From contig JAOZFT010000015.1 in NCBI GenBank assembly GCA_027492035.1, forward strand, positions 1-64,000: 64,000 nucleotides of DNA. Direction: 5' to 3'. Below are positions 27,755-61,236 of the stretch, in pieces. The position numbers and the translations under genes were made by a program. Source of the stretch: Thermoproteota archaeon. Its GTDB lineage: Archaea > Korarchaeota > JAOZGF01 > JAOZFZ01. The notes under the pieces were generated by a model. It was not told the DNA's origin. It saw nothing but the letters and a program-made list of their open reading frames with translations, and ran no database searches. Each line of letters starts with the position of its first letter. Position 1 is the stretch's first letter.

Positions 27755-29209
27755 TTGCGAGAAGGAGTTAAAGGGGGGCAATTAAGGATTTTAAGTAACG
27801 AAGATTTGCGGCAAATTTATGTAGCAACCCTTCATCTACTTGAAAAGCAAGGTGTAAAGGTGGAAAATGAAAAAGCCTTAAACATACTGGCTAAATCTGG
27901 CGCCATGGTGGATAAAAGGAGGAAAATTGCTAAAATTCCAGGCTACATGGTTGAGGAAGCAATTAAAAAGGCACCGAAAAGTATAAGGCTTTGCGGCAGA
28001 AACAGAAACCAAGATTTTATTCTTGAAGGAAAAAGAGCTTACTTTGGAAGTGGGGTGGGGACCACCCATATTTACGACCTTTATACTGGGGAATACAGAA
28101 AAACAAGGAAGAGAGACGTGGAGGACGCATTCAAGCTTTCAGATGCTCTTCCAAATATTGATCATGCCTGGGGGTTGTTCAGTTGTACAGACGTACCTTC
28201 CAGCGTTGTTGGGCTCCATGAGCTTGAAGCAGGTTTAACAAACACCACTAAACACATTTGCATCTACACTTGGCATGGCAAACCCCAAATAAATAAACAA
28301 ATTGAAATGGCTAAGTTAGTAGCTGGAGGTGAAGAAGAACTCAGGAAAAGGCCTCTTGTCACCCTCTACAATGAGCCCCATTCACCTCTAACCTACGGAA
28401 AAGATTATTTAGATTCCTTAATGGAGTGGGCTAAAGCTGGGTTGCCTCAAATTTGGTACCCAGCCCCTATGTCAGGGGCTACTTCACCTGTAACAATGGC
28501 TGGGACACTGGTTCAAGGCTGGGCTGAGTCATTAGGAGGATTGGTGATAGCTGAACTCATTAACCCAGGAACCCCTTTCATTGTAGGTACAGGTACTTTC
28601 CTCATGGATATGAAGACTTCCTCTATAGTTTATGCTTCAGCTGAATGTATGCTTTTAGCCGTTGCAATAGCCCAGATTGCCCATTATCTAGATATCCCTC
28701 TATTTGGATTGGCAGGAGCCTCAGATTCGCAAGTATTGGACGGGCAGGCATTAGCAGAATCAGCTATGTATCTTGCTATTTCAGCTTTAGCAGGTCAAAA
28801 CCTTATTCACGACTTAGGGTACCTAGCTTCAGGTTTAACGGGGAGTTTAGAACTTTTAACAATTTGTGATGAAATAGTGGCGATGGTTAAAAGGATAGCT
28901 AAAGGAATAAAAGTTAATGATGAAACATTAGCTTTGGGCGTAATAGAGAAAGTAGGTTTTGGAGGGAATTACTTAAAGGAGAAACATACAAGGAAACATT
29001 TCTGGACTGAACACTTAGTTCCAGATTTAATGAATAGAGACTTTCACTCTGGATGGGTGAAAAAGGGAGGCAAAACTTTGGAGGAGAGGGCTAGAGAAAA
29101 AACAAAGAAATTACTTAAAGAACATGAGGTTGAGCCTTTAGATAAAGAAGTAAAAAAGAAAATTGAAGAAATAATTAAGGAAACGACGAAAGAAACAACG
29201 AAAATATGA
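27755..29209 (+). CDS. MttB-family methyltransferase without pyrrolysine, copy 1
   Basis: The 484-residue protein belongs to the trimethylamine methyltransferase superfamily (COG5598): KGGQLRILS near the start, AGGEEELRKRPLVTLYNEPHSPLTYG, GATSPVTMAGTLVQG, LINPGTPFIVG and SGQNLIHD-type (AGQNLIHDLGYLASGL). There is no internal stop, so no pyrrolysine. Non-Pyl members such as MtgB (glycine betaine) and MtpB (proline betaine) transfer a methyl from a quaternary amine to a corrinoid protein. The TTG at 27755 is chosen because M-R-E-G-V-K-G-G-Q-L then aligns with both paralogues; GTG 27743 is the longer option. It is followed 17 bp later by proline racemase, hinting at a proline-betaine substrate (inference). 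Confidence 0.9.
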   Translation: MREGVKGGQLRILSNEDLRQIYVATLHLLEKQGVKVENEKALNILAKSGAMVDKRRKIAKIPGYMVEEAIKKAPKSIRLCGRNRNQDFILEGKRAYFGSGVGTTHIYDLYTGEYRKTRKRDVEDAFKLSDALPNIDHAWGLFSCTDVPSSVVGLHELEAGLTNTTKHICIYTWHGKPQINKQIEMAKLVAGGEEELRKRPLVTLYNEPHSPLTYGKDYLDSLMEWAKAGLPQIWYPAPMSGATSPVTMAGTLVQGWAESLGGLVIAELINPGTPFIVGTGTFLMDMKTSSIVYASAECMLLAVAIAQIAHYLDIPLFGLAGASDSQVLDGQALAESAMYLAISALAGQNLIHDLGYLASGLTGSLELLTICDEIVAMVKRIAKGIKVNDETLALGVIEKVGFGGNYLKEKHTRKHFWTEHLVPDLMNRDFHSGWVKKGGKTLEERAREKTKKLLKEHEVEPLDKEVKKKIEEIIKETTKETTKI

Positions 29210-29226
29210 GTTTTGGAGGTGTTTAA

Positions 29227-30231
29227 ATGAAGTTTTCTCATTTTATCACATGTGTAGATTCCCACACAGCAGGTGAACCAACAAGAATAGTTACTTCAGG
29301 CGTACCTAAATTAAGAGGTAAAACTGTAGCTGAAAAAAGGGATTATTTCAAGGAAAATCTCGACTATTTACGAACCTTTCTCATGCATGAACCACGAGGC
29401 CATAACGACATGTTCGGGGCTGTAGTTGTTGAACCTTCTGACGAAAAGGCAGATTTAGGAATAATTTTTATTGACTGCGGGGGATACCTTGACGGCTGCG
29501 GCCACGGCACAATAGGTGTAGCTACGGTAGCTGTTAAAACAGGATTAATTGAAGCAAGAGAACCTGAAACAAAAATAACCATAGAAACCCCTTCAGGCCT
29601 TGTTGAAACAATATGTGAAATTAAGGATGGCCACGTTGAGGAAGTCAAGTTAAGGAATGTACCCTCATTCCTTTATGATACTAAGGAAGTGGATGTGCCT
29701 GGTTTCGGTAAAGTAGAGATTGACATAGCTTTTGGAGGAAACTTTTTCGCTATAGTTGACGTGAAACAAGTTAAACTTAAAATAAACCCCAAAAACTCCT
29801 TGAAACTGATAGATGCAGGGCTAAAAATAAGAGATGCAATTAATAAACAAGTGGAAGTTATACACCCAATGAAGAAATACATAAACAAAGTAAATTTGGT
29901 GGAGTTTTATGACGACCCGGATATCCCTGAAGCCCACTGCAAAAACGTCGTTGTTTTCGGTAATGGTCAAATAGATAGGTCCCCTTGCGGCACAGGCACA
30001 AGTGCAAAAATTGCAACCCTGTATGCGAAGGGGAAATTAAAACTTGGAGAAGAGTTCATCCATGAAAGCATATTGAAAACTGTTTTCCGTGGAAAAGCTT
30101 TGAAAGAAACAAAAATAGGGAAATTTAAGGGGATCATCCCGGAAATAAAGGGTAAAGCATACATCACTGGCTTCAATCAATTAGTGATGGACCCAAAAGA
30201 CCCTTTGAAACATGGGTTCCAATTAAAATGA
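29227..30231 (+). CDS. Proline racemase family (both catalytic Cys present)
   Basis: The 334-residue protein has Cys91 in DGCGHGTIG and Cys254 in RSPCGTGTSA, the two acid/base cysteines of proline racemase and 4-hydroxyproline epimerase; the Cys-to-Thr change of trans-3-hydroxyproline dehydratases is absent. FGGNFFAIV is closer to proline racemases than to hydroxyproline epimerases as I remember them. A GGAGGTG site precedes the ATG, 17 bp after the mttB gene. Likely reaction: L-proline to D-proline (or a hydroxyproline or N-methylproline analogue). D-proline could then be oxidised by the FAD enzyme encoded next. Confidence 0.88.
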   Translation: MKFSHFITCVDSHTAGEPTRIVTSGVPKLRGKTVAEKRDYFKENLDYLRTFLMHEPRGHNDMFGAVVVEPSDEKADLGIIFIDCGGYLDGCGHGTIGVATVAVKTGLIEAREPETKITIETPSGLVETICEIKDGHVEEVKLRNVPSFLYDTKEVDVPGFGKVEIDIAFGGNFFAIVDVKQVKLKINPKNSLKLIDAGLKIRDAINKQVEVIHPMKKYINKVNLVEFYDDPDIPEAHCKNVVVFGNGQIDRSPCGTGTSAKIATLYAKGKLKLGEEFIHESILKTVFRGKALKETKIGKFKGIIPEIKGKAYITGFNQLVMDPKDPLKHGFQLK

Positions 30232-30365
30232 AAAAGGGTATCACCAGGGAAAAATTTTTGAAAAAAGTTTAAAAAAATGCTGCTTCATTCCTTCCTAAAA
30301 ATATCCTATAATTTTCTCACTCCCTATCTTTTAAGAAGGACCCTTTAAAGAGCGAGGCTTTTAAA

Positions 30366-31652
30366 GTGCCGAGATATGATGTAGTAGTGGTTGGGGCTGG
30401 AATTCTAGGTTTAACTTCAGCATATTACATAAAGAAGTGGAACCCGGACAAATCCGTCTTAGTTATTGATAAGTTCGCTTCAGCTGGCCAAGGGAACACT
30501 GCAAAAAGTGAAGCTTCATTCAGAAACGTTTTCTCCTCCAAGACAAATTTCTTTTTGGCTGACAGCTCTGTTGATTTTTATTTCCACCTCCAAAATGATC
30601 TAGGTTACAATCTTGGCTTGCATAAGATAGGATACTTATTTCTTTTAGGTGAAACAAGTTACAGAAAAGAAATAAATGTATTCAGAGAAGTTGAGAAGAA
30701 AGGGGTGGAAGTCGAGTACTTTGAAAAAGATGACTTGGAAAAAATGATTCCAGGCGTTGTTTTAGAATTCAGTAGCGAAGATGAGGAAGCTAAAAGACTT
30801 AACTTAGAAAACGTTGTGATGGGTGTTTTAGGTAAGAAATGCGGTTATTTAGACGCTGATTCGCTGGTGAAGTTTTACGAAGAAAGTTTTAAAAAAGAAG
30901 GAGGCCTTATTCAGTATAAAACATTGGTTACTGAATTAATTCTTGAACCCTTAGAAAAATACTGCATACCTGGTGAACCTTTTACGTGGCAAGAAGCAAA
31001 AATAATGGGAGTAAAAACAAATAGGGGGGAAATAAGGGCTGACACTGTGGTAGTGGCAGCAGGTGCTTGGTCAAACATCCTCCTTGACCCTGTAGGAATA
31101 GATGCAAGGGTGAAACCTAAGAAAAGACAAATTTTTGTGTTGAAAGGGGAAAGCCTTGAGCCATTATTTAACATTAAAGGGTTCAACAAGGAGAGGGTTC
31201 TTCCATTTGTGGCTATGCCTACAGCAGAGATTTACCTCAGGCCATGTATAGAGGAGAAAACTTTCTGGGTTGGTTGCACAGATGAGTTGGGGAGGAAATT
31301 TGAGCTCGAAGAAGACCCTCAACCAGAAAAATACTTTTACATTTACGGGATCAGGCTTGTACTGGAAAAGTACTTTCCCCATTTCAGGAACCTTAAACCG
31401 CTTAATGCATGGGCTGGTCAATACACACAAAACTCTTTAGATGCAAACCCTTACATTTTTGAGGAGGCTGGTGTAATAACTGTTACAGGAGCAAGTGGAA
31501 GCGGAATACTTAAAGGAGATGCAATCGGCAGAGTAGCAGCTGCTTTATATATGGGTGAAGACTACGCCGAACTTTATGGCGGAAGGAAATTTAAAGTAAG
31601 TGACCTTGGAGTGGATGAAAGAAAGGCTGAAAAGGAAGAGTTAGTGCTCTAA
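30366..31652 (+). CDS. FAD-dependent amine/D-amino acid oxidoreductase, copy 1
   Basis: The 428-residue protein of the DAO superfamily (sarcosine oxidase, dimethylglycine and D-amino acid dehydrogenases) starts with VVVGAGILGLTSAYYIKK and contains AGAWSNILLDPVG, PKKRQIFVLKGE and a C-terminal YAELYGGRKFKVSD. It probably oxidises a C-N bond of a secondary or tertiary amine, for example an N-methyl group left after MttB action, or D-proline. Its GTG start follows GAGGC. A close paralogue lies at 53664; each is next to an mttB gene. No partner subunit is present, so the electron acceptor is unknown. Confidence 0.85.
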   Translation: MPRYDVVVVGAGILGLTSAYYIKKWNPDKSVLVIDKFASAGQGNTAKSEASFRNVFSSKTNFFLADSSVDFYFHLQNDLGYNLGLHKIGYLFLLGETSYRKEINVFREVEKKGVEVEYFEKDDLEKMIPGVVLEFSSEDEEAKRLNLENVVMGVLGKKCGYLDADSLVKFYEESFKKEGGLIQYKTLVTELILEPLEKYCIPGEPFTWQEAKIMGVKTNRGEIRADTVVVAAGAWSNILLDPVGIDARVKPKKRQIFVLKGESLEPLFNIKGFNKERVLPFVAMPTAEIYLRPCIEEKTFWVGCTDELGRKFELEEDPQPEKYFYIYGIRLVLEKYFPHFRNLKPLNAWAGQYTQNSLDANPYIFEEAGVITVTGASGSGILKGDAIGRVAAALYMGEDYAELYGGRKFKVSDLGVDERKAEKEELVL

Positions 31653-31744: not shown

Positions 31745-33034
31745 ATGAAAAAGACACTGATTAAAAATTTAGAGGGTGTACCCCAAACCAAACTTCTTTA
31801 TTTTAAAGACCCTTACAAATTCAAGTTTAAGGCAGAAATTTTGAAAAAATGGGAAGTAAATGGGAAAATGTATATAGTACTGGACAAAACCTATTTCTAT
31901 CCAGAAGGTGGAGGCCAGCCATCAGACAAAGGTTATGTCTCAGTTGAGGATAAAAAGTACTCGGTTGTGGATGTGCAGAAAATTAAGGGCGTCATTGTTC
32001 ATGAGTGTGTCCCTTCAACTACTAAATCCTTAGAGGGAAAAGAGGCTTTAGGTGAGATTGATTCTAAAAGAAGAGTTTCTAATATGCGTTGCCACACAGC
32101 CTCACACATAGTGATGTCTGCTATCGAAAAAGTTAAGGGAAAGGCACAGTACGCAGGTTTTGGAATAGAGGAAGGTAAAGTTAGGTTAGATGTTCAAACT
32201 GAGAAAATAACACCCGAAGACTTAGAGGAAATAGAAAGGCGTTCAAACAAAGTTATTTACCAAGCCATACCTGTAAAAACATACTTTGTTTCAAGGAGTG
32301 AACTGGAAAAGATTCTGACCGGTCTCCACTGGGCAAAGGAAATACCCCTAGAGGAAAAAGTGAGGATAGTAGAGATTGAGGGTTTCGACAAAAGTATCTG
32401 CAGCGGAACACATTGTTTAAACACTATTGAAATAGGGATGATCAAAGTAATTAACAAGTTTAGGCTACAGAAGGGGGTTGAAAGGATAGAGTTCTTAGTT
32501 GGGGAGGAAGCAGTTAATGAAACCCTGGACTACATGAACAAATTAAGTTCTTTAGCTAGGAAACTGAATATTTCAGCAGAAGAAATACCTAATGTCCTTA
32601 TGAAGTTAAGGAATGAGAAAAAGAGAATGGAAAAAGAAATTGAAGAAATGAAGCAAGAGTTAACTGAATCAAAATTCAGAAACTTGATAAGTAAAAAAGA
32701 GCTGATAGGAACTGTGGAGGTAGTAACTGGGCTCTTAAGGGAAGCAAACGCCAAAACCCTGGGGAGACTGGTGAAAAAGGAGATAGAGGAAAACGAAAAT
32801 TTATTCATTGCTGTGGGGGGATTAAGTGGAAAACCAGCATTAGTTGCTGGAGGTGGGTCTCAACTTATTAAGAAAGGATTAAACGTAAGTCAGGTAGTCA
32901 GTGAAGTATGTCAAACATTGGGTGGGAGAGGTGGAGGGTCGAAAAACATAGGTTTTGGTGGAGGTTTAACAAGTGAAAACATTGCGAAAGCCGTTGAAAA
33001 AGTGAAAGAAAGAATTGTGTCATTCATTAAATGA
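31745..33034 (+). CDS. alaX: AlaX-type alanyl-tRNA editing protein, long form
   Basis: The 429-residue protein has a beta-barrel with YPEGGGQPSDKG, the editing core with zinc ligands His117, His121 (CHTASH) and Cys219, His223 (CSGTHC), a coiled coil (about 275-320), and a DHHA1 domain with GGRGGGSKNIGFGGG. This is the AlaX-L form that hydrolyses Ser- or Gly-charged tRNA-Ala in trans. No AlaRS catalytic domain is present. It is the only translation-linked gene in the catabolic island, which may matter if the island raises the level of unusual amino acids. AAGGAG precedes the ATG. Confidence 0.9.
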   Translation: MKKTLIKNLEGVPQTKLLYFKDPYKFKFKAEILKKWEVNGKMYIVLDKTYFYPEGGGQPSDKGYVSVEDKKYSVVDVQKIKGVIVHECVPSTTKSLEGKEALGEIDSKRRVSNMRCHTASHIVMSAIEKVKGKAQYAGFGIEEGKVRLDVQTEKITPEDLEEIERRSNKVIYQAIPVKTYFVSRSELEKILTGLHWAKEIPLEEKVRIVEIEGFDKSICSGTHCLNTIEIGMIKVINKFRLQKGVERIEFLVGEEAVNETLDYMNKLSSLARKLNISAEEIPNVLMKLRNEKKRMEKEIEEMKQELTESKFRNLISKKELIGTVEVVTGLLREANAKTLGRLVKKEIEENENLFIAVGGLSGKPALVAGGGSQLIKKGLNVSQVVSEVCQTLGGRGGGSKNIGFGGGLTSENIAKAVEKVKERIVSFIK

Positions 33035-33068: not shown

Positions 33069-34052
33069 TTAAAGGGGGAAGTGTTTGCCTACCCCCTCTT
33101 GCAGAGACTTGGTGTAAGCATGTTTTGCTGTAACGGCATCTTGAACAGCTAACCCTACAGATTTCCAAAGGGTCACTTCATCCCTTGAAACTCTACCCTT
33201 TTTTAAACCAGTAACTACCTCCCCTAGTTCTGCGTAGACATGGCCTTCAGTTATTGCCCCCTCTTTTATGGGAATTATTATGTCTCCAGATTCCGCTAAC
33301 ACTGCCTCTTTTGAATCAACAAAAACTTTTGATTTCTTAACAGTTTCCGTATCCAACTCTCTTGCGTCTTTCCCCATCCAACCAATTGAGTTAACATGTG
33401 TTCCAGGTTTAATCCATTCCCCCTTTAAAACAGGTTTAACCGAGGTTGTGGCCACTATTAAAACATCACTTGGTTCAACTGCTTTTTCTGCAGTTTCCAC
33501 GCTTCTGCCTTCAATCCTAAACCTTTCATTAATTTTTTCAGCTAACTCTTCAGCTTTGTCTTTCACAACATCATAAACTAAAACTGTTTCTATTTCCCTT
33601 ACTTCTTTCACAGCCCACACTTGGGTAAATGCTTGTTTTCCAGCCCCTATTACCCCCAAAACCTTAGAGTCTTTGCGAGATAAATACTTAGTTGCTAAAC
33701 CAGTTGCAGCACCTGTTCTTAAAGCAGTTATGTAACTTCCATCCATAAAAGCTAAAGGTTCACCTGTTTCCGGGTTGTTAAGCTGGATAGTTGCATATAT
33801 TGTAGGTAACTTATGTTTAACAATGTTATCGGGGTATACTGAAACAATTTTGACAGCTAAAGAGTTAAGGGGTTCAACGTAAGCCGGCATGTAAAGCATT
33901 GTGCCTCTATATTTTTTAATATTTATTATCGGCCTTAATGGAACTTCCGTTTCTCCCTTAACAAATGCTGAAAAGGCCTTCTCCATTAAATCAATAACTT
34001 CTTTCATATCCAGAACTTTCTTTAAGTCTTTTTCAGTTAAAAGTAAAACCAA
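33069..34052 (-). CDS. Ornithine cyclodeaminase / archaeal alanine dehydrogenase family
   Basis: The 327-residue NAD(P) enzyme has RTGAATGLATKYL, the Rossmann GVIGAGKQA and SVGLAVQDAV of the ornithine cyclodeaminase/mu-crystallin family. Members act as ornithine cyclodeaminase, alanine dehydrogenase, or delta1-pyrroline-2-carboxylate reductase. With proline racemase and a DAO-type enzyme nearby, the last activity (turning the D-proline oxidation product back to L-proline) is attractive, but sequence alone does not decide. The TTG at 34052, eight bases after GGTGAGGTG, is preferred over the GTG at 34061 that touches that site. Confidence 0.85.
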   Translation of the reverse strand: MVLLLTEKDLKKVLDMKEVIDLMEKAFSAFVKGETEVPLRPIINIKKYRGTMLYMPAYVEPLNSLAVKIVSVYPDNIVKHKLPTIYATIQLNNPETGEPLAFMDGSYITALRTGAATGLATKYLSRKDSKVLGVIGAGKQAFTQVWAVKEVREIETVLVYDVVKDKAEELAEKINERFRIEGRSVETAEKAVEPSDVLIVATTSVKPVLKGEWIKPGTHVNSIGWMGKDARELDTETVKKSKVFVDSKEAVLAESGDIIIPIKEGAITEGHVYAELGEVVTGLKKGRVSRDEVTLWKSVGLAVQDAVTAKHAYTKSLQEGVGKHFPL

Positions 34053-34269
34053 ATATTTCACACCTCACCTAACTAAGGGTATTCTCACTAAAATTTTTTG
34101 TTAACTCAGTTTCAAATACCTTCTTGTTTAGGATTTTTTTACCAAGAATTACTGCCTTTTTTTTAAGGTGTTGTAAAAAGTTAATGTTGCAAAAAAGAAT
34201 TATTGGAAAAAAACTTAAACTTTTAAAAAAATTTTGAAAGGGAAGTATTATAACCTGTAGCTTTTGGTG

Positions 34270-36111
34270 ATGAAGTTGCATGGTTGGAATGGTAAAATCT
34301 TAAGGGTGAATCTATCTAGCTCGAAAGTATCTGTTCAAAAGTATGGGGCAGATTTTGCTTTGAAATTCATTGGAGGCAGGGGATTCGCAGTTAAGATTTT
34401 ATGGGATGAACTTAAATCTGGGGTGGATGCTCTCTCTCCATTGAATAAACTTGTTATAGCTGCTGGTCCGTTAACAGGTCTACCTGGGCCAAGTACAGGT
34501 AAACTTGTGCTTGCAGCTAAAAGCCCTTTAACGAATGGGTATGGAGACGGGAACATAGGTGGGTTAGCAGCTGTGCATTTAAGAAAAGCAGGTTATGATG
34601 CTTTAGTAATTGAAGGAAAAGCTGAAAAACCTTCCTACTTATATGTAGAAAACGAAAATGTAAGTTTGTTAAGTGCTGACGGTATATGGGGGGAGACAAC
34701 ATTTAAGGCTGAAAATAAATTGAGAGAGGTTCATGGGAGGAATATAGGGGTTTTAGTAATTGGACCAGCAGGAGAGAACCTGGTTAAATACGCAACTGTA
34801 ATTTCTCAAGAGGGAAGGGCTGGTGGAAGGCCGGGTATAGGTGCAGTTATGGGTTCAAAGAATCTAAAAGCCATTGTGCTTAAAGGAACAAAGGAAATTT
34901 CTTTAGCAGACCCAAAAAAACATAAAGAAACAGTGAAGGAATGTTACAAATCTATACAGGAAAACGAGAATTATTCTTTCTGGGTGAGACAGGGAACCAT
35001 GGGTGTAGTGGAGTGGTGTCAAGAAAACAGTACACTGCCCACTTTTAATTTCAGAGAAGGAGTTTTTGAGTTTTCAAGGATGATTGACGGTTACACTATG
35101 GAAGCCATGAAAATAAGTAGAAGGGGGTGCCCTAACTGTAACATGATGTGTGGAAATGTGGTTGTTGATTTGGAGAGAAAAGATTCTGAGTTAGATTACG
35201 AAAACGTAGCAATGCTTGGTTCAAACATTGGTTTAGGTCACCTGGGAAAAGTTTCGGTTTTAAATAGGTTAGCTGACGAATACGGAATAGATACGATTTC
35301 ATTGGGTTCAAACTTAGCTTTTGCAATGGAGGCTACAGAGAAAGGTTTATGGAAGGATGGAATTGAGTGGGGAGACTTCGAAGCTGCAAAAGCACTCGTT
35401 GAAGACATTACATATCGCAAAGGTCAAGGTAACCTGTTAGCTGAAGGAGTAAAAAGGGCTTCTGAAGAACTGGGTGGTGGATCTGAACAATGGGCTATTC
35501 ACGTTAAAGGACTTGAAGTTTCTGCTTATGACTGTCATACAGCCCCTGGAATGGCTCTAGCTTACGGCACTTCACCAATAGGTGCCCACCATAAAGATGC
35601 ATGGGTTATTTCATGGGAAGTAAGCACAAACAGGTTAGGATATGGAAAAGAAAAAGTTGATAAAGTAATAGAATTCCAAAGGATCCGTGGAGGAATGTTT
35701 GAAACGTTAGTCGCCTGCAGACTCCCATGGATAGAGCTTAATTTCAGTCTTGAGTGGTACGTGAAGTTGTTTAAAACAGTTACGGGTATAAGTTTAACAT
35801 TGAATGAACTGGCTGGAACCGTTGCAGACAGGATTTATTGTTTAATGAGAGCTTTCTGGGTTAGAGAGTATGGTGAAAAGTGGAACAAAGAAATGGACTA
35901 TCCACCATCCAGATGGTTCAATGAACCATTAACTAAAGGGCCTTTTAAAGGAGGAAAGCTGGACATGAAAAAGTATGAAGAAACACTTTTGCTGTACTAC
36001 CGAGAGAGGGGGTGGGATGAACGAGGCATCCCCAAAAAAAGTACCTTTGATAAATTGGGTCTCCAAAAGGAAGCAGTTGAACTTGGTAAACATGTCTCTT
36101 TAATCCCCTGA
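34270..36111 (+). CDS. aor: Tungsten aldehyde:ferredoxin oxidoreductase
   Basis: The 613-residue enzyme has the AOR layout: [26 protein letters not shown], an N-terminal tungstopterin domain, cluster ligands C-P-N-C-N-M-M-C at about 287-294 with a fourth Cys in VACRLPW near 480, and a C-terminal pterin-binding domain. AOR oxidises aldehydes to acids with reduction of ferredoxin. In this island it could remove aldehydes formed from 2-oxo acids (by IorAB) or from demethylation. ATG 34270 is chosen; TTG 34264 adds two residues. It stands alone on the plus strand. Confidence 0.92.
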
Positions 36112-40265: not shown

Positions 40266-40294
40266 CTTTTAAACTAAACAGGGGCTTGTAGGAG

Positions 40295-42199: not shown

Positions 42200-42200
42200 T

Positions 42201-42821: not shown

Positions 42822-42852
42822 GCCCTTTTTCGATTTTTTGGAGGCGCCTGAA

Positions 42853-44373: not shown

Positions 44374-44400
44374 CTTTCTCCTAAAAAATGTGATCGTAAA

Positions 44401-49965: not shown

Positions 49966-49978
49966 TTTTCCTTCACCT

Positions 49979-51317: not shown

Positions 51318-51348
51318 AAAAGACACCTCCCTAAATTTCTTGAATACC

Positions 51349-52359: not shown

Positions 52360-52374
52360 CCCTTTCCACCTTTC

Positions 52375-53544
52375 TCAAACCTTGAAAACAGTAACTGCTG
52401 CTGTTCCACCTGACCCCCCCACGTTATGAGTTAAGCCTATTTCAGCGTCTTTAACCTGTCTAGCTGGCTTCTGAACAGTTTTTCGGAGTTGGTTAAATAT
52501 TTCATAAACTTGGCCTGTTCCAGTTGCCCCAATAGGATGTCCTTTAGCCTTCAATCCTCCACTTAGATTGACAGGTATTTCTCCTTCCATTGAAGATAAG
52601 CCCTCTTCAATAAATTTTCCTCCTTCCCCCCTTTCACAGAACCCAAGATCTTCATATGCAATTATTTCAGCTATTGTAAAACAGTCATGGACTTCAGCTA
52701 CATCTACATCTTTGGGTTTGATTCCTGCTTTTTTGTATGCCTCTCTAGCAGCCAGTACTGCCGCTTTTAAAGAAGTTATTGTCTCTCTATCATGTAGGGC
52801 GAGGTAATCTGTACCTGTACCGAACCCAGCCACGTAAACAGGTGAATCAGTGAATTTTTTGGCTATTTCGGCTTTACACAGCAGGACTGCTGATGCTCCA
52901 TCGGTAGTGGGGCAACAGTCGAAAAGATTTAATGGATAAGCTACCATTGGAGAATTCATTGCTTTTTCTAGGGTTATTTTATTCTGGAACTGAGCTTTTG
53001 GGTTAAGAAATGCATTTTTATGGTTTTTCACAGCCACCATAGACAGTTGCTCTCTGGTTGTGCCGTAGTCATGCATGTGACGGTTAGCCATTATTGCATA
53101 AAGCCCTGCAAAAGTCATACCTGCAAGTCTTTCGTACTCTGTATCCCCAGAAACTCCAAGCCAATACTTAGCCTTAAGAGATGAAACATCCCGCATCTTC
53201 TCAACCCCTCCTGCAATTACAACGTCATACATACCGGACATTATTGCTAAACATGCTTCTATGAAGGCAAAACCAGACGAGGAACATGCGTTCTCAATTC
53301 TTACTGCATGAACCCCTGGTAAACCTACATATTCAGCCATTAAAGCGGAAAGGTTGCCAAGCTGGAAACCTCCACTACCTAAACTACCAATGTAAACAGC
53401 ATTTATTTCTCTAGGTTCTAACCCGTTATCTACACTGTTTATTAATTCTATATAAGCATCTAAAAAAAGCTCTTTCACACTTTTATCGACTGATTCACCA
53501 TATTTGCTTTGACCAGCTCCAACAACAGCTACTTTACTCTCCAT
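52375..53544 (-). CDS. Archaeal thiolase (SCP2-type)
   Basis: The 389-residue protein has Cys87 in ENACSSSG, His286 in VHDCF and His336 in KGHPIGATG; the C-terminal catalytic Cys of bacterial thiolases is replaced by the archaeal HNVGGSGG. It condenses or cleaves acyl-CoA/acetyl-CoA. Here it is first in an operon with HMG-CoA-synthase-like, DUF35 and CoA-transferase genes. Unlike the mevalonate-type set, the HMG-CoA-synthase-like partner is inactive, so thiolytic cleavage of 3-oxoacyl-CoA in catabolism is the more likely job. ATG start; divergent from the second FAD enzyme. Confidence 0.9.
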   Translation of the reverse strand: MESKVAVVGAGQSKYGESVDKSVKELFLDAYIELINSVDNGLEPREINAVYIGSLGSGGFQLGNLSALMAEYVGLPGVHAVRIENACSSSGFAFIEACLAIMSGMYDVVIAGGVEKMRDVSSLKAKYWLGVSGDTEYERLAGMTFAGLYAIMANRHMHDYGTTREQLSMVAVKNHKNAFLNPKAQFQNKITLEKAMNSPMVAYPLNLFDCCPTTDGASAVLLCKAEIAKKFTDSPVYVAGFGTGTDYLALHDRETITSLKAAVLAAREAYKKAGIKPKDVDVAEVHDCFTIAEIIAYEDLGFCERGEGGKFIEEGLSSMEGEIPVNLSGGLKAKGHPIGATGTGQVYEIFNQLRKTVQKPARQVKDAEIGLTHNVGGSGGTAAVTVFKV

Positions 53545-53663: not shown

Positions 53664-54932
53664 ATGAATTACGACGCCGTAGTGGTTGGGGCAGGTGTCC
53701 TCGGTTTATCTACAGCTTACCACATCAAATTAGAAAATCCAGCTGAAAAAGTTTTGTTAATTGATAAGAACCCTGGGCCTGGACAAGGAAATTCAGGTAA
53801 ATCAGCTGAATGTTTCCGAAACATTTTCTACTCTGAAATTAATACTTTGTTAGCAGATACATCTATTGATTTCTTTTTCCATGTTCAGTATGAAAAGGGG
53901 TTTGACTTGGGTATACGCAAGGTGGGTTATCTTTTCCTGACAGCTGAAGAGGAACTGAAGCTTTTCAAAAAGGAGCACATAAAGAAAGGCCAGGTTAAGG
54001 TTTATGAAAGAGAAGACCTCAAGAAACTTCTTAAATTAAACCTAAACGTTGAAAAAGATAAAGAAGCCCAAATGCTTAATCTTAAAAACATCCAGAAAGG
54101 GTTTCAAATAATCAAAGCAGGTTACTTAAGTGTAAGCAAATTAATTGAGTTCTATGAATCAGAATTCAAGAGACTTGGAGGTGAAACACTTTACCGTACA
54201 AAAGTTAAAAAGTTGCTTATGAAACCTAAAGAAGAACTCAATATCATAGGTGAACCCCACATTTGGCAGGATGCAGAAGTAGTTGGTGTTGAAACTGAAA
54301 AAGGGAAAATTTACGCAAAAAAGACAATAGTAGCTACTGGTGCTTGGAGCAACACTTTACTTCACCCAGTAGGTCTAGAAACATATATGAACCCTAAGAA
54401 AAGGCAACTTTTTGTTTTGAAAGCTAAAACAAAAGAATTAAAAGATTTACTTTACTCGAAAGGGTTCAATAAAGAAGGAATACTTCCTTTCACCATTTTA
54501 CCAAAACCTCTAATTTGGATGAGGGCAACAATGGAGGAGAACACCTTCTGGATAGGGTGTGCAGATGAAATAGGTAGAAGTTTCAAACTTGAAGACGACC
54601 CTAAACCGGAAAAATACTTCTATATTTACGGAATAAGGCCTGTGCTTGAAAAATACTTTCCCCAATTCACAAACCAGGAACCTTTAAACATGTGGGCTGG
54701 TCAGTACGCAGTGAATTCCTATGACGGATGCCCAATAGTGTATGAAGAGAGTGGTGTTATTTATTTAACAAGTGCAACTGATAGGGGGATACAGATTTCT
54801 CCTTCCCTGGGAAAAATTGCTTCAGCTGTTTACTTCGGTGAAGAGTATGCTGAACTGTTTGGGGGCAGGAAATTTAAAGTAAGTGATGTAGGTATCAGAA
54901 AAAGGAAAATTGAGTATGAGCTAGTGCTTTGA
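53664..54932 (+). CDS. FAD-dependent amine/D-amino acid oxidoreductase, copy 2
   Basis: The 422-residue paralogue of the enzyme at 30366 shares VVVGAGVLGLSTAYHIK, ATGAWSNTLLHPVG, PKKRQLFVLKAK, a WAGQYAVNS stretch and the C-terminal YAELFGGRKFKVSDVG. It is a DAO-superfamily enzyme expected to oxidise a methylated or D-amino acid. It faces mttB copy 3 (convergent, 28 bp apart), whereas copy 1 lies with mttB copy 1. The two paralogues differ enough for different substrates. Confidence 0.85.
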   Translation: MNYDAVVVGAGVLGLSTAYHIKLENPAEKVLLIDKNPGPGQGNSGKSAECFRNIFYSEINTLLADTSIDFFFHVQYEKGFDLGIRKVGYLFLTAEEELKLFKKEHIKKGQVKVYEREDLKKLLKLNLNVEKDKEAQMLNLKNIQKGFQIIKAGYLSVSKLIEFYESEFKRLGGETLYRTKVKKLLMKPKEELNIIGEPHIWQDAEVVGVETEKGKIYAKKTIVATGAWSNTLLHPVGLETYMNPKKRQLFVLKAKTKELKDLLYSKGFNKEGILPFTILPKPLIWMRATMEENTFWIGCADEIGRSFKLEDDPKPEKYFYIYGIRPVLEKYFPQFTNQEPLNMWAGQYAVNSYDGCPIVYEESGVIYLTSATDRGIQISPSLGKIASAVYFGEEYAELFGGRKFKVSDVGIRKRKIEYELVL

Positions 54933-54960: not shown

Positions 54961-56427
54961 TTAGTTTTTGGATGTAACTTTGGCTATTTCTCTGGCCTGC
55001 TTTAGTATTTCTTCAACTCTTTCCCTTGTTTCAGCCGGTAAAGGTTCTATTTCATGTTCCTTCAATATTTTTAAGGCTTTCTCCCTTGTTCTTTTAACTA
55101 TATCTTTAGCTCCAAGTTTCATCCACATACTGTATGAAAAACTTCTATCCAACAATTCATTAATGAAATGTTCCTCCTTAAAGTATTTCCTTGTATGTTT
55201 AAGCTTTAAGAAGTTTCCAGCATGTCCAGCTTCCATTATTTCGTTTACAGCAAGTCTTTCCTCATCCACCTTTATTCCTTTCATGAAAAGCTTAGTTTCA
55301 CCTATTACCTCATCCGCAAAAACCAGTATCTCATGGGAAGTTGTAATTGCTGAGTCAATATAGCCTATGTCATGAATGAGGTTTTGGCCTCCGAGAGCCG
55401 CAACCATTAAGTTCCTTGTTGCCTCAGCAAAAGCTTGTCCGTCAAGCACCCGTGAATCTGAACATCCACCAGTACCCCACATCGGGATTCTTAAATAATG
55501 ACAAAGCTGAGCTTGTGCTGTTCCAAGCATCAAATCCTCAATTGCTCCATAAGAGGTAACTGTCGTCCTCATATCCATAACCATAGGTACAAAACCGAAA
55601 ATGAAAGGGGTGCCAGGGTTTATAAGTTGAGCTAAAACGTTTCCACCTATGGATTCCGCCATTCCTTGAACAATTGAACCAGCTAAAGTTACAGGGGCTG
55701 TTGCACCAGTGATTGGGCAAGGGGCGAAAACAACAGGTAACCCCCTCTTAACCCATTCAATCAAAGCTTCTACATAGATTTCGCCGTAAACTAACGGGGA
55801 TTGCGGTTCATCATACATGGAAACTATGGCTCTCCTTTTTAACTCCTCTTCACCACCCGCCACTTCTTCAGCTATTTTAATCATTAGTTTAGTCAATTCT
55901 GCACCATGGTAAGCGAAAACAATTGAGTGCTTCACTGTATTGGACATTATTGCATATTGTTCATAGAGGCCTTGAACCTCTGTCGGAACATCAAAAGGAG
56001 TAGCTAAACCCATTGCGTAATCAATGTTCGGTAACGCATCTGATAATTTAGCTGTGTTCGCTACGTCTTGAAGGTTGGTTTTTCTTCTTTCACCTGTTTC
56101 AAGGTCTATTATATGGGTTGTTCCACTGCTTGTGCCAAAAAAAACTTTCCTGCCTTCAATAATAAAATCTTGCTCTTTACTTCTTCCACAAAGCCTAACT
56201 CTCCTCGGTGCCTTCCTTAATGACTCCTTAACCAAATACTCTGGGAATTTAACTACTTTACTTTTATAATCAACTATTGCACCTGCATCTTCAAGTAGTT
56301 TAAGAGCTTTGTCATGCTCTATTTTAACTCCATGCATTTCTAAAACGTTAAGGATAGCGTAATAAATGTCTTCTATTTGTTCCTTGGATAAAATTTTCAA
56401 CTGTCCCCCCTTTAATCCTTTCCTCAT
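54961..56427 (-). CDS. MttB-family methyltransferase without pyrrolysine, copy 3
   Basis: The 488-residue protein starts MRKGLKGGQLKILSKE and contains AGGEEELKRRAIVSMYDEPQSPLVYG, TGATAPVTLAGSIVQG, CSDSRVLDGQ and GGQNLIHDIGYIDSAI. It has no internal stop, so it is a non-Pyl member, expected to demethylate a quaternary amine onto a corrinoid protein. No corrinoid gene is directly adjacent, so it probably shares one of the two encoded elsewhere in the island. AAGGTGATGAG precedes the ATG; a 16-bp palindrome lies in its promoter. Confidence 0.92.
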   Translation of the reverse strand: MRKGLKGGQLKILSKEQIEDIYYAILNVLEMHGVKIEHDKALKLLEDAGAIVDYKSKVVKFPEYLVKESLRKAPRRVRLCGRSKEQDFIIEGRKVFFGTSSGTTHIIDLETGERRKTNLQDVANTAKLSDALPNIDYAMGLATPFDVPTEVQGLYEQYAIMSNTVKHSIVFAYHGAELTKLMIKIAEEVAGGEEELKRRAIVSMYDEPQSPLVYGEIYVEALIEWVKRGLPVVFAPCPITGATAPVTLAGSIVQGMAESIGGNVLAQLINPGTPFIFGFVPMVMDMRTTVTSYGAIEDLMLGTAQAQLCHYLRIPMWGTGGCSDSRVLDGQAFAEATRNLMVAALGGQNLIHDIGYIDSAITTSHEILVFADEVIGETKLFMKGIKVDEERLAVNEIMEAGHAGNFLKLKHTRKYFKEEHFINELLDRSFSYSMWMKLGAKDIVKRTREKALKILKEHEIEPLPAETRERVEEILKQAREIAKVTSKN

Positions 56428-56600: not shown

Positions 56601-57221
56601 TTAACAGAGCAAAACTAACCCAACTCTGACGATTTTGTCCTTAGTTGGAAAACTAATAGGTGCCCCTGCTCTTTTGCATGTTTCTACGACATCTATTCCT
56701 AGAGCCTCCATTGAGGGCCTAGCCATGAAAGGTTTTGAACAGAAGGGGGTCCCTTTCTTGAGGTTGCATTCCTTACATAATCTACACTGCCCTGAAGTTA
56801 ATCCTGCAGCAAATCTGTAACCCATTTGGAAAGCTAAAGCCTCAACTTTAGAAACTACTTCATAAAGCTTCATTGCACTTGGTGCAACTACTGCTTCATA
56901 ACCCTTTTCAGAATACGCTTCTGCCAGGTTGCTTTTACCTTCTATAACTTTGTTTTTCGGGATCTTATCAGTAAGTTTTATAAGAATAGCAACTCGATAT
57001 TTTTTCAAAACCTTTTTGAACTCTGGTAAAGAGGGTACATAGGGTGGACACATTAAATTGGTGTTGTAGTTTGGGCAAAGTGGAACTATACACTTAAATT
57101 TTACCCTTTCATCTAACACTATATCCTTTGTTGGTATTATTTTACAGAAGGAAGCACCTGACTCTTTAGCTTTTTCGCATAACCTGTTAAAAGCTGCATC
57201 CTCAGCTTTCTTTTCAATCAT
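56601..57221 (-). CDS. DUF2284 cysteine-rich metal-binding protein
   Basis: The 206-residue protein has two Cys groups, CIVPLCPNYNTNLMCPPYVP and CRLCKECNLKKGTPFC, and the family hallmark RPSMEALGIDV. DUF2284 proteins are predicted metal- or Fe-S-binding proteins, common in methanogens and other anaerobes; function is unknown. Its start lies 11 bp after the stop of the MoxR/VWA gene, so both are made together. Close to mtmBC and mttB copy 3, an electron-transfer role in reactivating the corrinoid is possible but only inferred. Confidence 0.85.
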   Translation of the reverse strand: MIEKKAEDAAFNRLCEKAKESGASFCKIIPTKDIVLDERVKFKCIVPLCPNYNTNLMCPPYVPSLPEFKKVLKKYRVAILIKLTDKIPKNKVIEGKSNLAEAYSEKGYEAVVAPSAMKLYEVVSKVEALAFQMGYRFAAGLTSGQCRLCKECNLKKGTPFCSKPFMARPSMEALGIDVVETCKRAGAPISFPTKDKIVRVGLVLLC

Positions 57222-57232
57222 AGAAACACTTT

Positions 57233-59110
57233 CTAAATTATTTCGGCTACTTTATATGGTAACTCATTGAAATTGTCAAGGAAAGTGTAGTTTCCATTTG
57301 TGGCCTTTGACAAGTCTTTACAAAGATCTACACTTTCTTTTCTTCCACCTCCAATTCCTACCTGTACAACATTTAGTTTATCAAATTTTTTAGCCACATG
57401 TCTTGGATCTTCCCCTCTCGTAACCCAACCATCCGTTATGAGGATTCCTAATTTTTCACTTATATCTGCTCTTATGTTGGCTTCATCTAACTCATCTAAA
57501 CCCTTCTTTAAAGCCGTTTCTATGTTTGTCAACCCGCCTGTTTTTAAATTCAAAATTTTCCTTATCACTTCAGTTAGTTCTTCCTGTTCAAACACAGATT
57601 TTACCACTTCAGGTTTATCCTTAAAAGATATAACTGAGCAGTAATCATCTTTAAATTTAATAAGTAACGTAGCTGCTGCAATAGCTGTCAAAACTATTTT
57701 TTCCCTTTGCATGGAATTGCTTGTATCCAGCATCACAGCCACTCCAACTTTCCTCGGAATTTTCTGCATACACACTATGTCTTGGTAATCAATCACTTTT
57801 TTACCTATTAAGTTTTCAAAGGTTAAATCTTCATCTATTTCTTCCAATCCAGGAACAAATTCACTTCTTTCTTTACGTACTCTTCTAATCCTTTTTCCAG
57901 CTATTCTATGAGCAATCTCTAAAACCATTTTTATAATTAAATCCTCGATTTTCCTTTTTGTTACCGCATCTAAAGCTCTTTCACTAAGTAAAGAATAAAT
58001 TTTTATAACTGGCCATTCATAACCTTCTTTTTCAGCTTTCAAAACCAAATTTAAAACTTCATCATCACTTAATTTCTCAATAAAACCCGGTTTTTCAATT
58101 GCTTCCTTAACAGCTTCAATTATTTTTGTGTTCCGTTCCCGGAAAGAAACCCCTTGTTTTTTCCTATTTTCCACAATGTTTTGTCCTTGTTTAAGTTTAT
58201 TGCTATTGACTCCCCAGTTTTCATTTTTAGGTGTGAAGGGGTTACTACCCCAGTTAAGTTCTTTAAGAACAGAATAGACTATTTCTTTTATTATCTCGCT
58301 CAATTTCTTTTCCGTCTTACCTATTAAAGCAACTTTTGTGTACATTGCTGAAACAGCTAAGTTTACGATTAGTTCAGGGTTTAAGTCAGGGTTTCTTCTA
58401 TTTTTCACTAGTTCGACAAAATCTACAGCTCCCCTAATTGAGGCTCCATGTCTAAATTCAGGATGGACCCTTGTTTTTCTCATAATCTTGACAGCAAGTG
58501 TAAGTACTTTTCGGTCTTCGAACCCTGTTTCCTTCCTGACAATATCTATTTCCTCTTCTTCGCTTTGGTAACTTAACCCTATCCACACGAATCGGTCTCT
58601 AAGTGCTTCACTTAACCTGCTTGTGCCAACGTACTCTTGGGGATTTTGTGTAGCTATAACCAGAAAACCTTCCTTAGCCTTTATTACACCTATTTTTGGA
58701 ATGATAATTTGTTTTTCATCCATTGCAGGAAGCAAAACATTCTGTGTTCCCTCAGGCATTCTGTTAAGTTCATTTATGAAAAGAACACCACCCTCTATCA
58801 TTGCTTGAGTCAAGGGGCCTGGTATGAAGGACTTCCAGCTGTACCCTTTAGATAAGACAATTGGAGGATCAAACCAACCTGTTAATTTGTGTTCAGTGTA
58901 CCTTTCATCGCCATCCACCCGGTAAATTTTTCTCCCTAAGAAATTGGCTACAGCTGCAGCTAAAGTTGTTTTCCCTATACCTACAGGGCCTTCAAGTAAA
59001 ACATGTTTATTTGAAAGTGCAGCATTTAAGATGTTTTTCAGTTCCTCTTCTCTACCAATAATCCTATATTTCCTCTTTATCTTCTTTATGGCTTCCTCTA
59101 AATTGAACAT
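57233..59110 (-). CDS. MoxR-type AAA+ ATPase fused to a VWA domain
   Basis: The 625-residue protein joins an N-terminal MoxR AAA+ domain (Walker A GPVGIGKT near residue 41, FINELNRMPEG as Walker B region, ATQNPQEYVGTSRLSEALRDRF) with a C-terminal von Willebrand A domain carrying the metal-ion-dependent adhesion motif DTSNS and a LITDGW strand. The middle is helical. MoxR/VWA proteins work as chaperones that insert metals or remodel enzymes; the same layout is found in magnesium/cobalt chelatases. ATG 59110 follows AGGGAAG; TTG 59125 would add five residues. Located between mtmB and DUF2284 on one strand. Confidence 0.88.
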   Translation of the reverse strand: MFNLEEAIKKIKRKYRIIGREEELKNILNAALSNKHVLLEGPVGIGKTTLAAAVANFLGRKIYRVDGDERYTEHKLTGWFDPPIVLSKGYSWKSFIPGPLTQAMIEGGVLFINELNRMPEGTQNVLLPAMDEKQIIIPKIGVIKAKEGFLVIATQNPQEYVGTSRLSEALRDRFVWIGLSYQSEEEEIDIVRKETGFEDRKVLTLAVKIMRKTRVHPEFRHGASIRGAVDFVELVKNRRNPDLNPELIVNLAVSAMYTKVALIGKTEKKLSEIIKEIVYSVLKELNWGSNPFTPKNENWGVNSNKLKQGQNIVENRKKQGVSFRERNTKIIEAVKEAIEKPGFIEKLSDDEVLNLVLKAEKEGYEWPVIKIYSLLSERALDAVTKRKIEDLIIKMVLEIAHRIAGKRIRRVRKERSEFVPGLEEIDEDLTFENLIGKKVIDYQDIVCMQKIPRKVGVAVMLDTSNSMQREKIVLTAIAAATLLIKFKDDYCSVISFKDKPEVVKSVFEQEELTEVIRKILNLKTGGLTNIETALKKGLDELDEANIRADISEKLGILITDGWVTRGEDPRHVAKKFDKLNVVQVGIGGGRKESVDLCKDLSKATNGNYTFLDNFNELPYKVAEII

Positions 59111-59180
59111 TAGACTTCCCTGCAAAAATGATTAGTAAGTACTAAGTTGCTAATGCTTCTTTAAAAAAAGAGGAAGGTAT

Positions 59181-60566
59181 TTATTTGTACCACTCTATTC
59201 CGATATCACTTAACTCCCTTTTAACTGATTCATATATTTTAATGTAACTTTTTGCGGGTTTCACCCTCTTTATGTCATAGCATTCTTGGAATTTTTTACC
59301 TAAGGGGGCGTTCTTGATTTTGTCACTATATTTCTTCAAAATCTCTTTCACGATAACGTTTGCATCTGTTCTTTTCATTCCCAATACTGAATACGCTATT
59401 TCAGCCGCAAATTTAGGTTCTAAAGGTGTGAAATAATCTTCATGCTTGTTTTTAGCCACCCCTACTGCCTCTATGTGGCCGCCGGAAACAATTGGTGAAA
59501 TTACTGACGCAGCGGTTTCGTAGAGAACCATGTCAGTATGAGGCCCTGCAGCCACATACACCAAAGGAATGGTTAAAAAGTTTGTGTTAAGGCTTACAGC
59601 TTGGGTGTAGACCGAATTTACCCAGATCAAGTCAGGGGTTGTGTTACAGACGTGCCATATGTGTAGAGGGAAGGGGCTGAAATAAACAGCTTTAAAAACA
59701 AGGCTTCCTAAAAAGTGATGTGCAACTGTTGAAACAGCTGACCCTTCAGGTCCTCCAGCGTATCCACCAACCATTGGGGAGAAGTCGATGTCAATGGGTG
59801 CACCAAAGGACATTATGGTACATGCTTTGTTTAATCTGTCAAAATCAACTTTCATAGGATCAAGAACCCCTATCATGAACCCATCTGACTGCCTTAGTCC
59901 ATATTTTGGATGTAAAGCAGCTGCGAGAGAAACAGCTGATTCAGCTGTCGAAAGGGTGTTCATGATAGGTATACCAGGTCTTCCAACTCTTCTCATTCCT
60001 TCTCTAGCTAAAACAGCATTTCTTATAGCTCCCAAAACCTCTAAAGGTGACCTGGGTCTAATTCTCATTCCATTCACATTAGTTAAAGCAGGGGTGGTGA
60101 TAGAGTTTGTTTCAGGTATAGAGGCATACCCTTCCATCAATGCTAGAAATATAGCTTCAGAAGATACTGGCCCACCTGCTGCACCTAAGAAGCACCATGG
60201 AGACTGTTTATCTTCAGGTTTTCTAGGCATCAATGCTTTTCTATCGTTTCCTTCTCCGAAATAAACCTTTTTTGGGGCTTTTCTCAATTCTTCCTTAACT
60301 TCCTCCTCACTAAACTTTATTACTCTACCAGTGTCAACACAATAGGCACCTGTTTCAACAAAGAATTCAAAAGCTGCATTAAAAACGTCTTTAGCCAAGC
60401 CGTTATCAGCTGGAACCAGTTCTTCACCGTCATACTTTATGTCATACTCCTTTACCTTCTCTCTTAAGTTTTTTGAATAAATTCTTAGTTCATAATCTCT
60501 TGGAAGTACAGGTTTACCTGTTAAAGCTTTCTCCATCACATCTAAAAACGTAACCAATTCTATCAC
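59181..60566 (-). CDS. MtmB-family methyltransferase with Met at the pyrrolysine site
   Basis: The 461-residue protein matches monomethylamine methyltransferase MtmB along its length: TGAYCVDTGRVIKFSEEEV, RSPLEVLGAIRNAV, VGGYAGGPEGSAVSTVAHH and the C-terminal GKKFQECYDIKRVKPAKSYI. In methanogen MtmB the UAG-encoded pyrrolysine 202 follows G-R-P-G-M-G-V. Here G-R-P-G-I-P-I is followed by Met202 (codon ATG at 59961-59963). There is no in-frame UAG. It therefore keeps the fold but not the pyrrolysine ammonium-binding residue, and probably has a different substrate or mechanism. GTG start, 4 bp after the corrinoid gene stop; TTG at 60557 is an alternative start. Confidence 0.88.
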   Translation of the reverse strand: MIELVTFLDVMEKALTGKPVLPRDYELRIYSKNLREKVKEYDIKYDGEELVPADNGLAKDVFNAAFEFFVETGAYCVDTGRVIKFSEEEVKEELRKAPKKVYFGEGNDRKALMPRKPEDKQSPWCFLGAAGGPVSSEAIFLALMEGYASIPETNSITTPALTNVNGMRIRPRSPLEVLGAIRNAVLAREGMRRVGRPGIPIMNTLSTAESAVSLAAALHPKYGLRQSDGFMIGVLDPMKVDFDRLNKACTIMSFGAPIDIDFSPMVGGYAGGPEGSAVSTVAHHFLGSLVFKAVYFSPFPLHIWHVCNTTPDLIWVNSVYTQAVSLNTNFLTIPLVYVAAGPHTDMVLYETAASVISPIVSGGHIEAVGVAKNKHEDYFTPLEPKFAAEIAYSVLGMKRTDANVIVKEILKKYSDKIKNAPLGKKFQECYDIKRVKPAKSYIKIYESVKRELSDIGIEWYK

Positions 60567-60570
60567 TTCC

Positions 60571-61236
60571 TCACTTCTTCTTTTTTTCTAAAAGAGTAGC
60601 CGCCACTTTAACTGCATCCGTTGCAGTTTCTCCATACCCATCCGCGCCTATTTGTTCAGCCCATTCTGGAGTTGTTGGTCCTCCTCCAACTAAGACTATA
60701 TATTTCTCTCTTACTCCTTGGGCCTTTAAGTATTCAATAACATCTTTTTGTCCGCCAATGGTTGAGGACATTAAAGCTGAAACAGCTATTATATTTGCCC
60801 CGAATTTCTCTGCTTCTGTGTAAAATTTAGCTGCTGGAACATCCACCCCTAAATCCAAAACATCGAAACCGTTAACTTTCAGCATTGTTGCCACTACATT
60901 TTTTCCTAATTCATGAATATCTCCCATCACTGTACCAATTACGACTTTACCCTTCTTCTCCTCAAGTTTTGCAGTTTTAGGTATATGGGGAAGCAATATT
61001 TTCAAGGCCTTATCCATAGCTTCACCAGCCATCATCAAATCTGTTAAGAATATTTCCATTTTTTCAAATTTTTCCCCTACAATTTTCATTCCTTCAGCCA
61101 GTCCCTTCTCTATTGCTTCTAAAGGATTAATGTTTGCTTTAATTATTTCCTTGGATAAATTAACTACCTCATCTTCATCTATTTCAATAATAGCCTTCTT
61201 TAACTTGTCAATTAGCTCAGCGCCCTTATTACTCAT
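60571..61236 (-). CDS. Corrinoid protein, MtmC type, copy 2
   Basis: The 221-residue protein has the helical cap and a cobalamin Rossmann domain with GDIHELG (Asp106, His108), SALMSSTIGG and GGGPTTPEWAEQIGADGYG. It is the expected methyl carrier for the MtmB-like enzyme encoded 4 bp downstream. GAGGTGAAAG precedes the ATG. It is the first gene of the group that continues into mtmB and, after a 70-bp gap, the MoxR/VWA gene. Confidence 0.95.
   Translation of the reverse strand: MSNKGAELIDKLKKAIIEIDEDEVVNLSKEIIKANINPLEAIEKGLAEGMKIVGEKFEKMEIFLTDLMMAGEAMDKALKILLPHIPKTAKLEEKKGKVVIGTVMGDIHELGKNVVATMLKVNGFDVLDLGVDVPAAKFYTEAEKFGANIIAVSALMSSTIGGQKDVIEYLKAQGVREKYIVLVGGGPTTPEWAEQIGADGYGETATDAVKVAATLLEKKKK

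Follow-up and report, generated by a model that had tools for sequence, protein, structure and literature searches.

Gene content of the island

The 64,000-nucleotide stretch of contig JAOZFT010000015.1 analysed here (the window), from the Thermoproteota archaeon assembly GCA_027492035.1, contains an island of about 33 kb (positions 27755-61236) that encodes three homologues of the methyltransferase MttB, one MtmB homologue, two corrinoid proteins and a single MtrH among many catabolic genes, next to a Liv-type transporter (Table 1). A preliminary description, drawn from the sequence alone, had read this set, together with two DAO-type amine oxidoreductases and a proline racemase, as a locus for N-methylated amino acids that does without pyrrolysine (Pyl); inspection of the named genes placed each of them as described, with Pfam matches far over the cut-offs. 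All three mttB genes of the host genome (1.87 Mb, 93% complete) fall within the island, as does its only copy of mtrH, and by our own estimate the odds of finding three mttB genes and mtrH within 29 kb of such a genome by chance are about 1 in 10^5.

About 140 bp separate the end of the transporter from MttB1. A tight plus-strand operon (39213-45786) encodes the amine dehydrogenase-like protein, IorA, IorB, the AbfD homologue and a class-III aminotransferase. On the minus strand, the order from 53544 down to 45860 is thiolase, HMGS-like protein, DUF35, CoA-transferase A and B, MtbC1, MttB2 and MtrH, and the thiolase-to-CoA-transferase genes likely form one operon with MtbC1-MttB2-MtrH. A second minus-strand run, from 61236 to 54961, comprises MtbC2, the MtmB-like protein, the AAA-VWA fusion, DUF2284 and MttB3; DAO2 lies on the plus strand between both runs.

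Table 1. Genes of the island and of the adjoining transporter, numbered by position in the window.
Feature	Position	Strand	Match or remark
Liv-type ABC transporter, whole	22216-27601	mixed	Pfam
LivK	22216-23616	-	Pfam
LivH	24140-25030	+	Pfam
LivM	25018-25974	+	Pfam
LivF	26083-26820	-	Pfam; 73% identical to copy in Methanomethylicia MAG
LivG	26798-27601	-	Pfam; 77% identical to copy in Methanomethylicia MAG
MttB1, non-Pyl MttB paralogue	27743-29209	+	PF06253, 323 bits
Proline racemase, Cys-Cys type	29227-30231	+	AsProR 7pb3, E 1.8e-124
DAO1, L-proline dehydrogenase-like flavoprotein	30366-31652	+	3axb, E 6.6e-85, whole length
AlaX-like protein (alanyl-tRNA editing family)	31745-33034	+	adjoins DAO1 in two genera
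OCD-family protein, pyrroline-2-carboxylate reductase-like	33069-34061	-	6t3e, E 4e-124
Aldehyde:ferredoxin oxidoreductase (AOR)	34264-36111	+	80% identical G001 copy adjoins DAO1 and MttB
LarA-family nickel racemase homologue	37744-39027	-	profile match; pathway part uncertain
Ord / amine dehydrogenase-like NAD(P) enzyme	39213-40265	+	NF040740, 347 bits, below cut-off 400
IorA + IorB, 2-oxoacid:ferredoxin oxidoreductase	40295-42821	+	TIGR03336, 724 bits, over cut-off
4-Hydroxybutyryl-CoA dehydratase (AbfD) homologue	42838-44373	+	1u8v, E 5.4e-169
Class-III (GSAM-like) aminotransferase	44401-45786	+	profile match
MtrH, proposed methyl-corrinoid:tetrahydromethanopterin methyltransferase	45860-46762	-	profile match
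MttB2, non-Pyl	46903-48360	-	PF06253
MtbC1 corrinoid protein	48357-49013	-	NF047995 MtgC, 203 bits, below cut-off
CoA-transferase B and A, DUF35, HMGS-like, thiolase	49210-53544	-	profile matches
DAO2, second L-proline dehydrogenase-like flavoprotein	53664-54932	+	3axb, E 4.5e-81, whole length
MttB3, non-Pyl	54961-56427	-	PF06253
DUF2284 predicted metal-binding protein	56601-57221	-	same place in G001
AAA(MoxR/NorQ-like)-VWA fusion protein	57233-59125	-	same place in G001; near MtmB in L042, L053
MtmB-like methyltransferase, non-Pyl	59181-60566	-	PF05369, 328 bits
MtbC2 corrinoid protein	60571-61236	-	TIGR02370, 220 bits, over cut-off

Methyltransferases and their partners

None of the MttB or MtmB genes of the host contains an internal stop codon, whereas the search for MtmB genes did yield TAG-bearing copies in another genome (G057). 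The Pyl position holds alanine in MttB1 and cysteine in MttB2 and MttB3. The host has no PylS match over the cut-off in a search that the Methanosarcina acetivorans control passes. Neither the in-frame amber codon nor a PylS over the cut-off, the marks of Pyl-dependent methylamine methyltransferases, is thus found in the host, and the island instead combines MttB matches free of in-frame TAG with a corrinoid protein and an MtrH/MtgA-type partner nearby, the arrangement of a non-Pyl MttB system.

In a tree whose characterised references were MtgB and Pyl-MttB, MttB1-3 form one clade with a Methanomethylicia protein, apart from both references, which suggests a lineage expansion of MttB that may serve several substrates. 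The island MtmB falls, in a tree of 114 rows, into an archaeal clade of 15 rows (support 98) with members from Bathyarchaeota, Thorarchaeota, a Thermoplasmata metagenome-assembled genome (MAG) and others, apart from the Pyl-type and methanogen rows. MtqB, the first characterised non-Pyl MtmB, acts on tetramethylammonium and choline (PMC13044021); judged by its nearest proxy among the rows, from Methanococcoides vulcani (L117), the island protein lies outside the methanogen/MtqB-type branch. As the island protein does not group with methanogen MtmB rows, no characterised enzyme indicates what it acts on, and by this placement that of MtqB would not be transferable to its clade.

The preliminary description had counted one MtmB-like enzyme, which is right for the island but not for the genome, where two further homologues reside on other contigs, each adjoining its own corrinoid protein. 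One of these pairs (L020, G000:C1:8000-25982) adjoins a complete Liv-type transporter of its own; the other MtmB, which is divergent (L021, G000:C9:71000-90900), stands with its corrinoid protein behind an AOR, a ferredoxin and a CbiA/MinD-type ATPase, less than 8 kb from CdhC of carbon monoxide dehydrogenase/acetyl-CoA synthase (CODH/ACS).

The AAA-VWA fusion is closest, midasins aside, to NorQ/CbbQ-type ATPases, which serve in metalloenzyme maturation or remodelling; a maturation function for the island protein would be a guess. The notion that it stands in for a missing corrinoid activator is weakened by the presence of a full RACo in the host. DUF2284 and the AAA(NorQ-like)-VWA fusion accompany MtmB in the host, in a relative from a second genus (G001, described below) and in a Methanomethylicia MAG (loci L022, L042 and L053 compared); in a Spirochaetota MAG, AAA and VWA are encoded separately, next to three MtmB genes.

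A methyl sink in a host lacking McrA

Outside the island, the host encodes Mer (424 bits, cut-off 349), Mch and CdhC, all over their cut-offs, along with a full RACo-type activator, and so has the tetrahydromethanopterin (H4MPT) Wood-Ljungdahl route as judged from Mer, Mch and a CODH/ACS subunit. McrA was not found in the host genome, which speaks against methylotrophic methanogenesis. The tetrahydropterin C1 genes that the preliminary description had proposed to look for are thus present, and its parallel checks for mcr and pyl gave no McrA and no PylS over the cut-off; because the genome is 93% complete, these two absences are strong, not absolute. A luciferase-like gene in the window (18974-20047) was rejected as Mer (131 bits against the cut-off of 349), the true Mer lying elsewhere.

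The relative G001 is the MAG Flange_M5_B4, from the same family as the host and a different genus. Mch and CdhC occur together in both genomes and in no tested member of the large sister family (f3). Deep-branching, Wood-Ljungdahl-encoding, Mcr-less Korarchaeia have been reported from Arctic vents (PMC10667645). The distribution of Mch and CdhC, the identity of G001 and the small size of the phylum all fit these organisms, so the host probably belongs among deep-branching korarchaea, with a hydrothermal vent as its probable habitat. The same report describes several methyltransferases and MtrH in Korarchaeia without settling whether these archaea can grow on methylated compounds; its main text mentions neither MttB nor betaine.

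Conserved linkage in relatives

In G001, which is spread over about 220 contigs so that links among blocks can be followed only piecewise, the linkage of the island genes recurs, whereas scattering in relatives had been named in the preliminary description as a refuting outcome. One contig carries IorA-IorB-AbfD-aminotransferase-MtrH-MttB (72-83% identity), a second AlaX-DAO1-AOR-MtbC-MttB-LivK-LivH, a third MtbC1-CoAT_B-CoAT_A-DUF35-HMGS-like-thiolase, and a fourth DUF2284-AAA/VWA-MtmB-MtbC2. Beyond the family, a Methanomethylicia MAG (L042) has MtbC-MtmB-DUF2284-AAA/VWA-MttB-aldehyde dehydrogenase-aminotransferase, followed by LivG and LivF, and MtrH comes directly after MtbC-MtmB in two Bathyarchaeota and one Thorarchaeote (L041, L043, L050).

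This conservation bears on two alternatives. The methyltransferases might use substrates other than betaines or be relics, the island then having no part in methyl catabolism: neither this MttB clade nor this MtmB clade has assigned substrates, and the vent study left growth on methylated compounds unsettled (PMC10667645). However, MttB1, MttB3, MtmB and MtrH keep intact frames and about 70-86% identity between the genera, and all characterised non-Pyl MttB members listed in PMC11291895 use quaternary amines, so that this view appears improbable. Alternatively, a quaternary-amine system that only demethylates, comparable to that of Eubacterium limosum, could lie by chance beside an ordinary proline/ornithine fermentation locus. 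Eubacterium limosum does halt after one demethylation of gamma-butyrobetaine (PMC8604678), and the proline genes are similar to those of the Thermococcus proline locus, whose description as used here includes no methyltransferase (PMC4364671). Yet methyltransferase and catabolic genes are interleaved in the island, and both kinds recur together in G001 on the first three contigs above; we consider a chance pairing possible but, on the whole, unlikely.

Catabolic genes and candidate substrates

The two DAO-type oxidoreductases can be defined more precisely than before, as both align across their full length to 3axb, which we take to be the L-proline dehydrogenase of Aeropyrum pernix. The crystal-structure paper of that enzyme is cited by a study of Thermococcus litoralis, in which proline racemase, L-proline dehydrogenase and pyrroline-2-carboxylate reductase cluster as a proline/hydroxyproline locus (PMC4364671). 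The island racemase keeps both catalytic cysteines, in CGH and DRSPCGTG motifs as given in that study. The proposed degradation of the amino acid skeleton of betaines is thus matched by enzymes that are present, several of which (the racemase, DAO1, DAO2 and the OCD-family protein) point to proline; AbfD, IorAB, the CoA-transferase/thiolase operon and the AAA-VWA/DUF2284 pair had gone unnamed in the preliminary description.

Examination of the remaining genes led us to reject two other assignments. The 'HpaB' gene is not an aromatic hydroxylase: it matches 4-hydroxybutyryl-CoA dehydratase and, aligned to 1u8v, keeps the iron-sulphur ligands CxxxC and HxxxxxxC. Nor do thiolase, HMGS and DUF35 form a mevalonate operon; the canonical HMGS scores 449 bits and lies on a different contig, and that of the island, at 191 bits against a cut-off of 353, is a paralogue rather than the housekeeping gene.

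Because genes for proline racemase, L-proline dehydrogenase-like and pyrroline-2-carboxylate reductase-like proteins lie near MttB1, our best guess at the substrate is proline betaine, which would be demethylated to N-methylproline. Gamma-butyrobetaine is our second guess, as AbfD, CoA-transferase and thiolase would fit a C4 acyl-CoA route. Were gamma-butyrobetaine (or carnitine) the main substrate, it would be demethylated towards 4-aminobutyrate, the aminotransferase would yield succinate semialdehyde, and CoA-transferase, AbfD and thiolase would carry 4-hydroxybutyrate to acetyl-CoA, as in clostridial 4-aminobutyrate fermentation. The complete ligand set of AbfD agrees with this, as do the IorAB-AbfD-aminotransferase genes beside MtrH and an MttB in two genera and the collinearity of the CoA-transferase and thiolase genes with MtbC1-MttB2-MtrH; the scheme leaves the proline racemase, the L-proline dehydrogenases, the pyrroline-2-carboxylate reductase and IorAB unexplained, and we regard it as rather unlikely. 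AbfD homologues were not found near MttB in the other MtmB-bearing genomes examined, which belong to other phyla; the union of AbfD and MttB has therefore been seen so far only in the family of the host, a further point against gamma-butyrobetaine as the main substrate.

Flanking and unplaced genes

Leftward of the transporter (18974-22116), genes of the F420-type luciferase family, for an arylmalonate decarboxylase/EutA-like protein and for a second GSAM-like aminotransferase stand in line on the minus strand. G+C content is 0.37-0.40 at 20001-60000, covering transporter and island, and 0.35-0.37 in the left flank and at the right end. No tRNA genes were found in the window. The AlaX-type homologue directly follows the L-proline dehydrogenase-like gene, likewise in G001, for no evident reason, and a minus-strand EamA homologue sits beside the LarA homologue, between AOR and the amine dehydrogenase-like operon.

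Proposed pathway

We interpret the island as a betaine catabolism locus of a non-methanogenic anaerobe, probably a deep-branching korarchaeon, with a probability of about 0.62. From the genes, we infer the methyl flow, its acceptor, the substrates and complete degradation as follows. The Liv-type transporter would take up quaternary amines; each MttB paralogue would take a methyl group off its own particular betaine or N-methylated product and load it onto Co(I) of MtbC1 or MtbC2, as the MtmB-like protein probably would too, with RACo holding the corrinoid reduced. The single MtrH would pass the methyl group to H4MPT, and methyl-H4MPT could be either oxidised via Mer and Mch or consumed by CODH/ACS. 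Since the host shows no Pyl codon, no PylS over the cut-off and no McrA, and encodes Mer, Mch, CdhC and RACo, this route from MttB (or the MtmB-like protein) through corrinoid, MtrH and methyl-H4MPT to the Wood-Ljungdahl pathway is the most likely one. The proline skeleton may be handled by the racemase, the two L-proline dehydrogenase-like flavoproteins, the pyrroline-2-carboxylate reductase and AOR, and C5/C4 units may be converted to acetyl-CoA by IorAB and the amine dehydrogenase-like protein together with 4-hydroxybutyryl-CoA dehydratase, the aminotransferase, CoA-transferase and thiolase.

Several points weigh against this interpretation. AlaX, LarA, EamA and PfpI of the island have no place in the scheme, the linkage in G001 is seen in pieces, a pterin other than H4MPT could be the acceptor of the island MtrH, and the vent study found in Korarchaeia no complete redox machinery for growing on methylated substrates (PMC10667645).

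A bolder proposal, which we advance only tentatively, is that the korarchaeal lineage fully degrades proline betaine and/or gamma-butyrobetaine anaerobically, by corrinoid demethylation to H4MPT and proline-/4-hydroxybutyryl-CoA-type catabolism, and that AAA-VWA and DUF2284 together serve specifically to mature or reactivate a clade of non-Pyl MtmB enzymes. If true, degradation would be complete where a known gut acetogen halts after one demethylation. What becomes, in the gut, of the tertiary amines that remain after betaines are demethylated anaerobically (4-dimethylaminobutyrate, norcarnitine) is described as unknown (PMC8604678). The locus supplies candidate enzymes both for acting on such amines and for breaking down the carbon skeleton, in a lineage for which growth on methylated compounds had been left open (PMC10667645), and hints at how osmolytes such as betaines might be wholly consumed without oxygen. 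The locus further defines a clade of operon-linked non-Pyl MtmB proteins common to the host, Bathyarchaeota, Thorarchaeota, Methanomethylicia and a Thermoplasmata MAG.

Comparison with known systems

Betaine demethylation by MttB, MtbC and MtrH has already been proposed for non-methanogenic Culexarchaeia (PMC9723716) and Asgard archaea (PMC11291895), whose mttB-mttC-mtrH sets likewise cluster a non-Pyl MttB, a corrinoid protein and a lone MtrH in Mcr-less genomes with H4MPT genes; in the island, by comparison, three MttB proteins and an MtmB-like protein share one MtrH and are interleaved with proline and C4 acyl-CoA enzymes and a Liv transporter. MtpB, MtyB and MtcB of Eubacterium limosum, for proline betaine, gamma-butyrobetaine and carnitine, are also non-Pyl MttB members with a corrinoid partner (PMC8604678), but there one methyl group is taken from gamma-butyrobetaine and the product excreted, whereas the island has skeleton enzymes alongside and its acceptor is probably H4MPT. 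MtqB of Methanococcoides (PMC13044021) shares with the island MtmB its family, the lack of Pyl and an adjacent corrinoid protein; the island protein belongs to a separate archaeal clade and has AAA-VWA and DUF2284 partners.

On the catabolic side, the Thermococcus litoralis cluster (PMC4364671) resembles the island in bringing together proline racemase, L-proline dehydrogenase and pyrroline-2-carboxylate reductase, whereas the island dehydrogenase is of the single-chain Aeropyrum type, is present in two copies and is mixed with MttB genes. Clostridial 4-aminobutyrate fermentation likewise employs a 4-hydroxybutyryl-CoA dehydratase with its ligands, CoA-transferase, thiolase and aminotransferase, but the island set is linked to MtrH and MttB and adds IorAB and an amine dehydrogenase-like gene. 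The methyl-transfer core is thus of a kind known in non-methanogenic archaea; the novelty lies in how large the set is, in its link to enzymes for proline and C4 skeletons, and in its being conserved in a second genus.

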